Shown: piece after piece, positions 4,869-40,181 of the stretch | Numbering within the stretch: the first letter of the stretch is position 1 | Layout: every line of letters begins with the position of its first letter | From: Opitutaceae bacterium | GTDB lineage: Bacteria; Verrucomicrobiota; Verrucomicrobiia; Opitutales; Opitutaceae | DNA length: 43,049 bases | NCBI GenBank assembly: GCA_028284235.1 | Contig: JANQSC010000046.1 | Span: forward strand, 1 to 43,049 | Direction: 5' to 3' | Notes under the pieces: generated by a model | Databases searched by the model: none | Seen by the model: the letters and a program-made list of their open reading frames with translations, nothing else | Told to the model about the DNA's origin: nothing | Translations under genes and position numbers: made by a program

Positions 4869-5015
4869 GTTTAACAGGATGCGGTCTCCCGCTTTGCAGG
4901 ATCCCTCGCTTGATTCTGCTACGCAGAAACTTGATGAGAATTTGGGTTGTTTAGATCCATCAAGTTACCGCAGCGCGGTATCAAACAAGGGAGGAACGAC
5001 CGCATCCTGTTAAAC
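4869..5015. repeat. TIR element copy 1 (TTAACAGGATGCG family), 147 bp
   Basis: Perfect 18-bp terminal inverted repeats (GTTTAACAGGATGCGGTC and its complement). Inside are a hairpin TTCTGC-tac-GCAGAA (4914-4928), a pair AACTTGATG / CATCAAGTT, and a second hairpin ACCGC-agc-GCGGT (4967-4979), so the whole can fold as a branched cruciform. Its right end lies 9 bp before the ATG of the next sulfatase. The remaining gap, 4678-4868, shows nothing recognisable and probably carries divergent promoters. Confidence 0.85.
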
Positions 5016-6783: not shown

Positions 6784-6928
6784 TTTAACAGGATACGCCC
6801 CGACGCAGTCGAGGCTACAGGATGTCTCGCAAGCGAGACAACAGGATGGCGACTAAAAATCATGTTCTCCTGCAACAGCGGGAGATCCTGCGAGCGAATT
6901 CGCGTCGCGGATGAGCGCATCCTGTTAA
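6784..6928. repeat. TIR element copy 2, degenerate
   Basis: TTTAACAGGATACGC on the left and GCGCATCCTGTTAA on the right bound a segment with a hairpin GTCTCGC-aa-GCGAGAC (6824-6839) and a near-palindrome TCTCCTGC...GCGGGAGA. The layout matches copy 1, but more positions have drifted. It fills almost the whole gap between two sulfatase genes and ends 35 bp before the ATG at 6964. Confidence 0.75.
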
Positions 6929-8424: not shown

Positions 8425-8426
8425 TT

Positions 8427-8437: not shown

Positions 8438-8473
8438 TTGTTTTGATTGTGCACGTAAGAGTACATTTTATTT

Positions 8474-8645
8474 TTAACAGGATGCGCTCGTGCCTCCTGC
8501 TTCGCTCTTCGAGCTACGCAGGACGCAGTCGCTCACTTGATACCGCTTCGCGGTTACTTGATGGGTCAATATAAGAAAACCAAATCAAGTTGGGCCCGCA
8601 GTTGCGGGACCATCAAATGAGCGAGGCACGAGCGCATCCTGTTAA
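8474..8645. repeat. TIR element copy 3, 172 bp
   Basis: The longest terminal repeats in the family: 23 bp, TTAACAGGATGCGCTCGTGC plus CTC, with a perfect inverted partner at 8623-8645. Internal hairpins are ACCGC-ttc-GCGGT and CCCGC-agtt-GCGGG, separated by CTTGATG and ATCAAG motifs as in copy 1. It is followed by a decayed copy of the DUF1080 gene start. Confidence 0.85.
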
Positions 8646-8740
8646 CCAACCTACGCAACCTAAAGAAAATCAACCTAGTATTATGAATACAATTAGACTA
8701 CTTTCAGTCTCGGCGTTTTGCTGAGCCTTAGTTTAATTGA
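8641..8740 (+). pseudogene. Decayed duplicate of the DUF1080 gene 5' end
   Basis: The sequence from GTTAACCAACCTACGCAACC through an ATG at 8683 repeats that at 8909-9000, the leader and signal peptide start of the intact DUF1080 gene. Copy one reads MNTIRLLSVSAFC then stops (TGA 8722-8724). The intact copy reads MNTNKLLLSLGVLLGL. A one-base deletion and several substitutions separate them, at roughly 80-85% identity by eye. Homology fades near 8740. It is a relic of a duplication bounded by elements 3 and 4. Confidence 0.8.
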
Positions 8741-8763
8741 GTTTAAAGACGAATATTTATTTT

Positions 8764-8913
8764 TTAACAGGATGCGGTCGTACCTCCCTTGCTTGATGGT
8801 CCCGCGAGCGGGACCAACATGATTATTTTTCAAAATCAAGTTACCGTTCCGACAAAGACGGGACGGTATCAAGTGAGCGATCTCGCCAGAGACAGGAGAG
8901 CGCATCCTGTTAA
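8764..8913. repeat. TIR element copy 4, 150 bp
   Basis: TTAACAGGATGCG at the left pairs with CGCATCCTGTTAA at 8901-8913. The inner hairpin GGTCCCGC-GA-GCGGGACC is a reverse-oriented relative of the right-hand hairpin of the gene-bearing copy at 21.2-21.8 kb. It ends 37 bp before the ATG of the DUF1080 gene. Confidence 0.82.
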
Positions 8914-8950
8914 CCAACCTACGCAACCTAAAGAAAACCAACCTAATATT

Positions 8951-9622
8951 ATGAATACAAATAAACTACTACTCAGTCTCGGTGTCTTGCTGGGCCTTAC
9001 TCTAACTGCGATCGCCGCTCCGCCGAAAGGCGAGGGCTGGGTGGCCTTGTTCGATGGAAAGACTCTGACCGGTTTCGAGTCCAAAAATGGATACGCGACT
9101 TACCAGGTTGAGGATGGAGCGATCGTCGGCCGTACCGCGGTAGGCAGCGAAAATACTTTTCTTGTCACCCGCAAGGAGTACTCGGATTTCGAGATCGTGT
9201 TCGAAGTGAAAGTCGACGACGGATTGAATTCAGGAATACAAGTCCGCTCACGCGGCCGCAACTGGGGGCACAACCACTTCATTGGCCCGCAGATTGAAAT
9301 CGAGAGCGGCCCGGGCCAGTCTGGATGGGTCTACGGCGAAGGCATGGATACTGGCTGGATTTCACAAGAACCTCAGTCGAAGGACAAAAGCGTCAACCAG
9401 CATGACTACATGAAAAACGGCGAGTGGAACCACTTTCGAATCGTTGCAAACGGGCCGAACATCAAGACTTTCATCAACGGCAATCAAGTAGCGGATGAAA
9501 ACATGAGGCGTTTCCACCGCAACTACGCGTCCGGACACTTCGGATTCCAGGTGCACAAGATCCCGAACGATAAAGGCCCCTTCGAAGTCCGCTGGCGGAA
9601 TATCTATATAAAAGAACTCTGA
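8951..9622 (+). CDS. Exported DUF1080 / 3-keto-disaccharide hydrolase-type protein
   Basis: A 223-residue protein. The signal peptide MNTNKLLLSLGVLLGLTLTAIA is followed by one DUF1080 (PF06439) domain from GEGWVALFDGKTLTGF to FEVRWRNIYIKEL. Characteristic pieces are NSGIQVRSRG, PQIEIESG, GEWNHFRIVANG and GHFGFQVH. The fold is a concanavalin-like beta sandwich. Family members act on glycans and some are described as 3-keto-glycoside hydrolases, but activity cannot be read from sequence. I chose 8951 because it starts the signal peptide and is mirrored by the duplicated upstream relic; a longer frame from 8789 would run through the repeat element. It lies among sulfatases, so a role on the same polysaccharide is likely. 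Confidence 0.92.
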   Translation: MNTNKLLLSLGVLLGLTLTAIAAPPKGEGWVALFDGKTLTGFESKNGYATYQVEDGAIVGRTAVGSENTFLVTRKEYSDFEIVFEVKVDDGLNSGIQVRSRGRNWGHNHFIGPQIEIESGPGQSGWVYGEGMDTGWISQEPQSKDKSVNQHDYMKNGEWNHFRIVANGPNIKTFINGNQVADENMRRFHRNYASGHFGFQVHKIPNDKGPFEVRWRNIYIKEL

Positions 9623-16613: not shown

Positions 16614-16684
16614 TGCCCACAGATTACGCAGATTGTCTCAGATGTTTTGAATGAATCTGTGTCGATCTGCGTAATCTGTGGGCA
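16614..16684. repeat. Inverted repeat of CACAGATTACGCAGAT type
   Basis: TGCCCACAGATTACGCAGAT (16614-16633) has a perfect complement at 16665-16684 around a 31-base loop. This motif class recurs between genes in many bacterial genomes. A second member is at 18423-18527. A separate GTGTTTAGG direct repeat precedes it at 16570-16602. Confidence 0.75.
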
Positions 16685-18397: not shown

Positions 18398-18422
18398 GGG
18401 ATTGGAATGCTGGATGGTTTCT

Positions 18423-18527
18423 GCCCACAGATTGCACAGATATGCACAGGTTTTTGTGGGTTGCAGAGAGTTTCTGGAGCTAAAATTGTGTATTCAAAAT
18501 CTGTGTGAATCTGTGTAATCTGTGGGC
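18423..18527. repeat. Inverted repeat of CACAGATTACACAGAT type, copy 2
   Basis: GCCCACAGATTGCACAGA (18423-18440) pairs with TCTGTGTAATCTGTGGGC (18510-18527), 17 of 18 positions. It lies between the SDR gene and dhaK. With the copy at 16.6 kb it brackets dhaK-dhaL. Confidence 0.7.
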
Positions 18528-21248: not shown

Positions 21249-21802
21249 GTTTAACAGGATGCGCTCTCCCGTGAAACGGGATCGCTGACTTGATCTCCCG
21301 CTACCGCGGGAGAACTTGATGGGTTTTAGCCAAGGCTGAGGTCGCCCCGTTTAACTTCTAGCCGCGAAGGACCAAAGTTCATCAACAAACCCCTATCTAT
21401 TCGCGATGCCTTGAGATAGTTGATCAGCTGAGCTTGATGCTCTGGAAGAAGCCGTTTGACCGCTTTCAGTTCGATGATGACCTCGTCATTGACTACAAGG
21501 TCGGCCAAATACTCCCCAACAGCCTCGCCCCTAAACATTACTTTAATTGGAACTTGCTGTCTCACTCTGAAACTAGCCTGTTCGAGAGCGATCTTTAGAG
21601 AATTCTCATACACTTTCTCTACAAACCCAATTCCCAGTTCATCGTGAACTTCGAAGGAGATACCTATAATTTTCCCAGTTAAAGAGTCGTTTTCCATTCG
21701 AGCAGCCTAAACGCCATCGGAGCATTCACAACCCGAATCCATCAAGTTGGTCCCGTTTACGGGGCCATCAAACGAGCGAGGCACGAGCGCATCCTGTTAA
21801 AC
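21249..21802. mobile_element. Gene-bearing TIR element (copy 5), 554 bp
   Basis: Perfect 18-bp terminal inverted repeats GTTTAACAGGATGCGCTC / GAGCGCATCCTGTTAAAC. The left arm holds hairpin TCTCCCGC-tacc-GCGGGAGA between TTGATCT and CTTGATG. The right arm holds CATCAAGTT, hairpin GGTCCCG...CGGGGCC and CATCAAACGAGCG. These are the two halves of the short elements, pushed apart by a GxxExxY gene (21326-21697). No obvious direct target duplication was identified. Classed as mobile by inference from dispersion, structure and the deletion derivative at 23948-24165. Confidence 0.65.
21326..21697 (-). CDS. GxxExxY protein, PD-(D/E)XK-like fold
   Basis: A 123-residue protein of the GxxExxY family (PF13366, PDDEXK_3). 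The name motif is G24-F-V-E27-K-V-Y30. A PD-(D/E)XK nuclease-like core is visible: E27, D66 in YLADLVV, E76-L-K78 in IIELKAV, then a Q in HQAQLINYLK. Family members are abundant, often multi-copy and functionally unproven. Here the gene lies wholly inside the terminal repeats of a TIR element, with its stop codon 3-5 bases from the left arm's CTTGATGGG. It may act on the element's cruciform DNA or RNA, but that is inference. No Shine-Dalgarno was seen. It lies on the same strand as its neighbours but is probably independent. Confidence 0.88.
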   Translation of the reverse strand: MENDSLTGKIIGISFEVHDELGIGFVEKVYENSLKIALEQASFRVRQQVPIKVMFRGEAVGEYLADLVVNDEVIIELKAVKRLLPEHQAQLINYLKASRIDRGLLMNFGPSRLEVKRGDLSLG

Positions 21803-23947: not shown

Positions 23948-24165
23948 TAAACAGGATGCGCTCCTGCGTCGCTCGTTTGATCTCCCGCTGCCGCGGGAGA
24001 GCTTGATGATTTGATAACGGGGACGGCTCGTACGCGGGACCGAGAGTTGAGGGCAAACAAAACCGCCATCGAACCCTTCACAGTCCGAATGCATCAAGTT
24101 GGTCCCGCTCCCGGGACCATCAAACGAGCGATCCCGTCAGAGACGGGAGAGCGCATCCTGTTAAA
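23948..24165. mobile_element. TIR element copy 6, internal-deletion form, 218 bp
   Basis: Ends TTAAACAGGATGCGCTC and GAGCGCATCCTGTTAAA. Left arm hairpin TCTCCCGC-tgcc-GCGGGAGA with TTGAT...GCTTGATG, right arm CATCAAGTTGGTCCCGC...CGGGACCATCAAACGAGCG. The middle keeps about 33 bp (24058-24091, GCCATCG..CTTCACA..CCGAAT) that match the region just upstream of the GxxExxY gene in copy 5 (21715-21740), but the gene itself is gone. Hence it is an internal-deletion relative. It fills most of the gap 23798-24179, where nothing else was seen. Confidence 0.7.
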
Positions 24166-40103: not shown

Positions 40104-40181
40104 AACCGCGAATGCACGCGAATAGTCGCGAATATCTTACAATCTGGGCTTATTCGTGACTATTCGCGTGCATTCGCGGTT
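40104..40181. repeat. 31-bp inverted repeat, CGCGAATGCACGCGAATA type, overlapping glcF stop
   Basis: The left arm at 40104-40134 (AACCGCGAATGCACGCGAAT and on) pairs with 40151-40181 at 30 of 31 positions around a 16-base loop. The right arm encodes the last ten codons and stop of glcF. A related CACGAATGTCACGAA motif lies at 40005-40030. It may serve as glcF terminator. Confidence 0.8.

Follow-up and report, generated by a model that had tools for sequence, protein, structure and literature searches.

How does a gene for a small predicted nuclease come to lie between the terminal repeats of a dispersed hairpin element, and are the two functionally connected? The question arises from a 43,049-nucleotide stretch of DNA (hereafter referred to as the window), which constitutes contig C2 of a source genome (G000) of 6.13 Mb assembled in 81 contigs. 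An earlier note on this DNA had described a GxxExxY gene enclosed by the ends of such an element, and had likened the arrangement to a gene-bearing element accompanied by short gene-less relatives.

Copies of the element in the window

A search with the TTAACAGGATGCG end, allowing up to two mismatches, returned 14 matches in the window against 0.75 expected. Twelve of these pair up to define six two-ended copies (Table 1), with unpaired matches at positions 8426 and 21815, and the left ends of the copies at 6785 and 23948 each carry one mismatch to TTAACAGGATGCG. The earlier account of their distribution is borne out, since all six copies fall within 4.87-24.16 kb and the same end search located none elsewhere in the window. 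It was also correct in that copy 5 encloses an intact gene encoding a 123-aa GxxExxY protein, with matches to both PF13366 and TIGR04256. The accompanying claim that CTTGATG and CATCAAG are shared by every copy stands only in part: both motifs are exact in copies 1, 5 and 6, copies 3 and 4 retain CTTGATG only, and copy 2 has neither.

Table 1. Features of the window and repeats flanking the other GxxExxY genes of the source genome
Feature	Position in window	Strand	Basis or remark
Copy 5, gene-bearing, complete element from one TTAACAGGATGCG end to the other	21251..21800	-	End matches and copy alignment
Left terminal arm GTTTAACAGGATGCGCTC	21249..21266	+	18-bp inverted repeat, score 36
Right terminal arm, inverted counterpart of left arm	21785..21802	-	18-bp inverted repeat, score 36
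GxxExxY protein gene, PD-(D/E)XK nuclease family, 123 aa	21326..21697	-	Profile matches
Left internal minihairpin (TCTCCCGCTACCGCGGGAGA), CTTGAT and CTTGATG at its sides	21289..21321		Read from sequence
Right internal minihairpin, CATCAAG at start	21740..21773		Read from sequence
Copy 1, gene-less	4871..5013		End matches, alignment
Copy 2, gene-less, divergent, without CTTGATG	6785..6928		End matches, alignment
Copy 3, gene-less	8474..8645		End matches, alignment
Copy 4, gene-less	8764..8913		End matches, alignment
Copy 6, gene-less	23948..24164		About 30 bp of interior match stretch upstream of gene in copy 5
Gene-less hairpin of other end type (AACCGCGAATGCACGCGAATAGTCGCGAATA)	40104..40181		Same type encloses GxxExxY gene L006/L040, contig C49
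Gene-less hairpin, CACAGATT-like units	16614..16684		Inverted-repeat list
Source genome gene L002			Inverted repeats AACCACGAAACACACGAA
Source genome gene L004			Inverted repeats GGACATCGCCCCGAC
Source genome gene L006			Inverted repeats AACCGCGAATGGACGCGAATAAACGCGAAT
Source genome gene L005			Long direct copies of hairpin composite on both sides
Source genome gene L001			Mainly direct-copy hairpin arrays and short inverted match

Because it keeps sequence found upstream of the gene in copy 5, copy 6 looks like an internal-deletion derivative from which the gene has been lost. A 73-nt stretch running from the right end of copy 4 into its flank is 95% identical to the equivalent stretch at copy 3, and copies 3 and 4 with their right flanks (window 8464-8970) probably represent a tandem duplication of some 270-290 bp. 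As a divergent sub-type, the window copy has internal minihairpins in addition to a single AACAGGAT unit at either end. A search of the window against Rfam gave no match, and the window element is not located inside an rRNA gene. Arms of the CACAGATT-like type were found around none of the six GxxExxY genes of the source genome. A second CACAGATT-type hairpin lies at 18421-18527 of the window, likewise without a matching gene among those six.

Element ends and gene-less hairpins in the source genome

The exact TTAACAGGATGCG 13-mer occurs 66 times in the source genome (reversed control, 0), and the looser end AACAGGATNCG 127 times (control, 1). Counting copies with and without a gene by their TTAACAGG ends, over the first 100 of the 127 matches, yielded 25 two-ended copies, one of them holding a gene; copies in this set span 129-364 bp between the outer 11-mer edges, and the gene copy 546 bp. 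Six GxxExxY genes were found in this genome. The expectation that they would all share the same ends failed: identical ends around all GxxExxY genes are ruled out, as only the window gene (1/6) carries them. The other five have different repeats on both sides, which in three cases are clear inverted repeats and in two are mainly direct hairpin copies (Table 1). The results nonetheless support the idea of gene-bearing elements that have short gene-less relatives, and in a more general form than proposed, since matched inverted repeats also bound the majority of GxxExxY genes sampled outside this genome (see below).

Many gene-less copies of the flanking repeats are present in the source genome, and they belong to two end types. 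Arms of the CGCGAAT type gave 44 matches (control, 1), and the 20 loci fetched displayed 11 distinct two-arm cases, comprising ten gene-less hairpins and the gene copy. The arms are separated by 14-19 bp in nine of the gene-less cases, by 63 bp in one and by 379 bp in the gene copy. In the 63-bp case the arms are identical to those of the gene copy, with an interior that bears no evident likeness to it, and the interiors of the gene-less CGCGAAT hairpins are, by eye, unalike.

Enclosure of GxxExxY genes by inverted repeats in relatives and other phyla

Matches to TIGR04256 were identified in 52 of the 61 sampled genomes of the family (part of a larger group), amounting to 232 genes. From the roughly 150 places listed we fetched 80 stretches (five from the source genome), mostly the higher-scoring ones and with some near contig starts skipped, which together with the window hold 82 GxxExxY genes. 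Enclosure was scored as the best local inverted match between the two 300-bp flanks of a gene, with a threshold of at least 28. This threshold is reached by 72/82 genes of the family sample, compared with 1.51% of 1656 control positions taken at the same loci with the same gap. For other phyla, the best 80 of at least 584 loci, titled and including Methanosarcinales, were used; five were dropped at contig edges, and 56 of the remaining 75 genes score at least 28, against 13/1084 control positions (1.2%). The latter sample leans to one sub-family because the search used conserved peptides of that sub-family. In the same 61 genomes, none of 25 ParE toxin genes (30 fetched, 5 dropped) and 3/19 Y1 transposase loci (30 fetched, 11 dropped by a length filter) reached the threshold. 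Enclosure of GxxExxY genes by matched inverted repeats is thus general and far above controls.

Anatomy of the arms

By eye, arms often open with a T-run, followed by AACC and some three repeats of a 6-7 bp unit. The best repeat lag is 8, 9 or 10 in 65/68 family arms and in 45/49 arms from other phyla, the analysis having left out 4/72 and 7/56 arms, respectively, for length. Letters match at lag 9 with a mean of 0.38, compared to 0.29 in shuffled arms, a modest mean signal because lags vary from arm to arm. The units differ among elements (CACAGAG, CACTGAT, CGCGAAT, CACGAAA, ACAGGAT), yet the two ends of any one element agree. The window protein falls in a supported group of six whose elements, by eye, carry multiple minihairpins and not plain ladders. 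At some genes the left arm continues into the reading frame, where it would encode the first residues of the protein (NHEGHKEHEG in L053, with the start chosen by script). Concerted evolution of the two arms is suggested in only one of five orthologous groups (group A; within 39.1 vs. cross 25.9) and not in groups B-E.

Arm numbers across genomes

A general period-10 arm pattern identified 684 arms in the 61 genomes (control, 1), of which only 4 lie in the nine gene-free genomes, versus 680 in the 52 gene-bearing ones (Mann-Whitney p 4e-4); 11 of the 52 have no arm of this pattern. Arm number correlates with GxxExxY gene number (rho 0.53), with the number of S23-type genes (rho 0.50) and with that of Y1 transposase genes (rho 0.42), but not with that of ParE genes (rho 0.12). 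Once two arms per gene are subtracted, the remainder shows no relation to gene number (rho 0.13, p 0.31). Genome G029 holds 39 period-10 arms, mainly of the CACGGAT or CACGAAT type, for which a matching gene was not found; its single GxxExxY gene has CACAGAG arms with a 9-bp period, invisible to the period-10 pattern. These orphan arms speak against strict pairing of gene and repeat. A further genome, G049, has 26 of its 30 period-10 arms within 38 kb (C1:2194564-2232634), where CACAGAT and CACGAAT arms are mixed, partly in steps of about 200 bp, in the manner of a hotspot or tandem array.

The GxxExxY protein

The window protein matches PF13366 (PDDEXK_3; E 3.6e-40, 137.4 bits, curated cut-off 22) and TIGR04256 (GxxExxY; E 1.2e-40, 138.5 bits, cut-off 35), both scores placing it above the curated cut-offs of the family. 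The frame is not of the S23/four-helix-bundle type, TIGR04256 being the only TIGR match of the protein. Residues G22, E27, Y30, D66, E76, K78 and Q90 are all in place, and the predicted PD-(D/E)XK nuclease pattern is present as a conserved D, (D/E)xK and helix E. The putative active-site residues are nearly invariant among GxxExxY proteins (E27 in 172/173, D66 in 173/174, E76 in 172/174 and K78 in 173/174). Values of dN between pairs lie at 0-0.26; dS is 0.14 for the closest pair, and at least 0.88 or saturated for all others. The protein is under purifying selection.

The combination of helix E, D, ExK and QxxxY resembles the motif pattern of nucleases of the RecB/Cas4 type and of Holliday-junction nucleases. 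This likeness agrees with Cas4-type matches, which were weak (the window protein at E 0.016, L047 at E 0.0044), and a sequence search of the PDB gave one weak match (E 0.32). A defence role was considered and set aside, as what pointed to it were these Cas4-like matches only, all weak. Searches with L047 gave no match in phage sequences, and viral contigs likewise gave none. A limited literature search found no function for GxxExxY in print, and the passage on GxxExxY in PMC8934634 makes no mention of repeat-bounded elements. No published description of such elements was among the matches listed in a literature search mostly outside subscription papers. GxxExxY is a common bacterial family, and the regular setting of its genes (inverted arms, gene-less copies, an empty site) opens its function to direct tests.

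Empty and filled alleles at the metH site

Empty orthologous sites, a comparison that the earlier note called for, are present at the metH locus of another bacterial family. In Roseibacillus L155, two frames border the element, the one encoding a homocysteine S-methyltransferase domain (PF02574) and the other a pterin-binding domain (PF00809), in the domain order of MetH. A search for this site in 97 genomes of the same family matched 91, and gaps were counted in the 58 genomes (query included) with both flanks listed on one contig, leaving out G107 and G143, which match through the element. The gap is below 200 bp in 45 genomes, 450-700 bp in 10, larger in 2 and 339 bp in 1, and 19 of the 45 short gaps have one identical value. 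Most of the longer gaps are element-sized.

We read 32 sites, picked to cover both filled and empty ones, and found a GxxExxY gene in 13, a remnant in one (L247), an S23-type gene in one (L240) and no element in 17. Orthologous alleles of this site either carry the element or lack it as a single block. The two MetH parts form one open frame in five of the 17 element-free sites (L235, L238, L252, L256, L258), four of which belong to the 19 genomes with identical gaps. Genomes without the element in the family of G061 (L229-L258) have the MetH parts as one frame in some cases and as two adjacent frames in others. The split of MetH may be a scar of lost elements.

Inverted matches of at least 34 occur in 12 of the 15 filled sites, within the 150 bp tested per end, and the same test gave no clear inverted match in L233, L245 and L248. 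In the best pairs the element begins at the upstream stop codon or immediately downstream of it, and from its letters the arm's TTTGAACC or TTAACC could itself supply the TGA or TAA stop. No target-site duplication was seen at metH, where the flanks have diverged. The S23-type gene (L240:760-1137; TIGR02436, E 1.1e-18) has arms of 7-bp units and stands where other genomes have GxxExxY elements. Repeated independent insertion at metH was tried as an explanation and set aside: the 13 GxxExxY proteins of the site require five changes on the tree, despite which a single origin of the site genes is not rejected (p-AU 0.397).

Tempo of movement

Among 20 close protein pairs tested, 18 have common neighbouring ORFs and were therefore probably inherited in place. 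No neighbouring ORFs are shared by L112 and L097 (89% amino acid identity, from two genomes of one genus) or by L059 and L053 (87%, from one genome). Since most close element pairs are syntenic, movement appears to be rare, and this synteny, the near-invariant active site and a dN far below dS together make the elements look like old, rarely moving residents that keep a working enzyme. Several GxxExxY fragments, some with in-frame stops, occur in G063 (Niabella pedocola), as expected of decaying element copies.

Comparison with known systems

REP/REPIN sequences and their RAYT (TnpA_REP) genes combine a gene flanked by inverted hairpin repeats, many gene-less hairpins and an HUH/Y1 transposase. 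The GxxExxY element resembles them in layout and in the many gene-less hairpins of the genome, but encloses a PDDEXK_3 gene instead of a Y1 (HUH) transposase, and its arms are tandem units. MITEs and insertion sequences are characterized by terminal inverted repeats, internal-deletion derivatives and empty sites. All three have counterparts here, the empty sites at metH only, whereas the GxxExxY elements carry no known transposase, and no target duplication was seen in their diverged flanks at metH; the mostly unalike interiors of their gene-less forms (by eye, CGCGAAT type) also set them apart from ordinary MITEs. Free-standing homing endonucleases place a nuclease gene in a small insert between gene parts, with uninterrupted alleles elsewhere. 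The element at metH is similar in being a nuclease insert between gene parts with uninterrupted alleles, but matched inverted arms and dispersed gene-less copies belong to the GxxExxY elements.

In layout, the rRNA intervening sequence comes closest. Like the GxxExxY element, a 23S rRNA intervening sequence with S23p has inverted repeats and just one small gene, next to which lie short tandem units, and an S23-type element occupies the GxxExxY-used metH site once (L240). The two differ in that GxxExxY is an unrelated nuclease family, with units every 8-10 bp as opposed to 7. According to PMC4990558, the Coxiella 23S intervening sequence has tandem heptamers ahead of the S23p frame and is excised by RNase III, and intergenic TAACTGA heptamers are described in PMC4679880.

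Proposed explanation and alternatives

On this evidence we consider it rather likely that the gene-bearing element of the window belongs to a widespread set of small mobile elements, in which terminal inverted repeats surround a single gene encoding a predicted PD-(D/E)XK nuclease. The elements are probably rarely moving and mostly vertically inherited, with the nuclease probably acting on the arms. It would recognise or bind the ladder of repeated units at each element end and would cut the arms, a cruciform formed by them or a target, cleavage of an extruded cruciform being one possible form; host repair could then copy or move the element, and gene-less hairpins might use the GxxExxY enzyme in trans. 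A broader proposal, which we put forward tentatively and hold to be somewhat less probable than its opposite, is that an element class spanning phyla, and not described before, uses GxxExxY as its mobility enzyme: a stand-alone PD-(D/E)XK nuclease would recognise tandem-unit terminal repeats, with the S23/four-helix-bundle elements as a parallel class using common insertion sites.

The likeness to intervening sequences opens an alternative at the RNA level, in which base-pairing of the arms within the transcript gives a stem that is trimmed by RNase III or a different enzyme. The element would persist by doing little harm where it lies, between transcribed genes or within them, and would be spread by host or other enzymes. 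The S23-type occupant of the metH site and the RNase III excision in Coxiella favour this reading, as do the S23/four-helix-bundle (TIGR02436) or IVP genes of the same genomes (L259-L288), which share the layout: 22/30 lie between inverted arms scoring at least 28, built of 7-bp tandem units (best lag 7 in 21/22). We nevertheless judge it unlikely, given that it leaves the conserved nuclease active site unexplained and that the arm period of GxxExxY elements differs from that of S23 arms. It is more improbable still that the hairpins belong to another transposase (an IS200/RAYT-type Y1 enzyme or other) with GxxExxY as a passenger. Matches to Y1_Tnp in 53/61 genomes, in numbers that correlate with arm number, and the orphan arms of G029 lean that way, but G029 itself has 39 arms and no Y1_Tnp match, only 3/19 Y1 loci are enclosed by inverted repeats, and the association of GxxExxY gene and arms persists across phyla. 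Equally little credence is given to the idea that GxxExxY is an immobile host nuclease gene whose flanking hairpins are regulatory (attenuators or terminators): it would accommodate the synteny of 18/20 close pairs and the purifying selection on the protein, but is at odds with presence and absence at metH, with the gene-less copies, with the lack of such flanks at all 25 ParE genes and with the two close pairs found at unrelated places.

If the element class proposed here is real, many intergenic hairpin families of environmental bacteria would be non-autonomous offspring of GxxExxY elements. The inverted-arm context of GxxExxY genes also suggests one origin for abundant intergenic hairpins, and it ties the old puzzle of rRNA intervening sequences to a wider class of elements with one gene between inverted repeats. 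A general hairpin search over 1.0 Mb returned 31 hairpins that, by eye, belong mostly to other families. A separate dispersed palindrome family, beginning with GGTAGGGAGGC, is present in several genomes of the family (e.g., at L049, L097 and L103).
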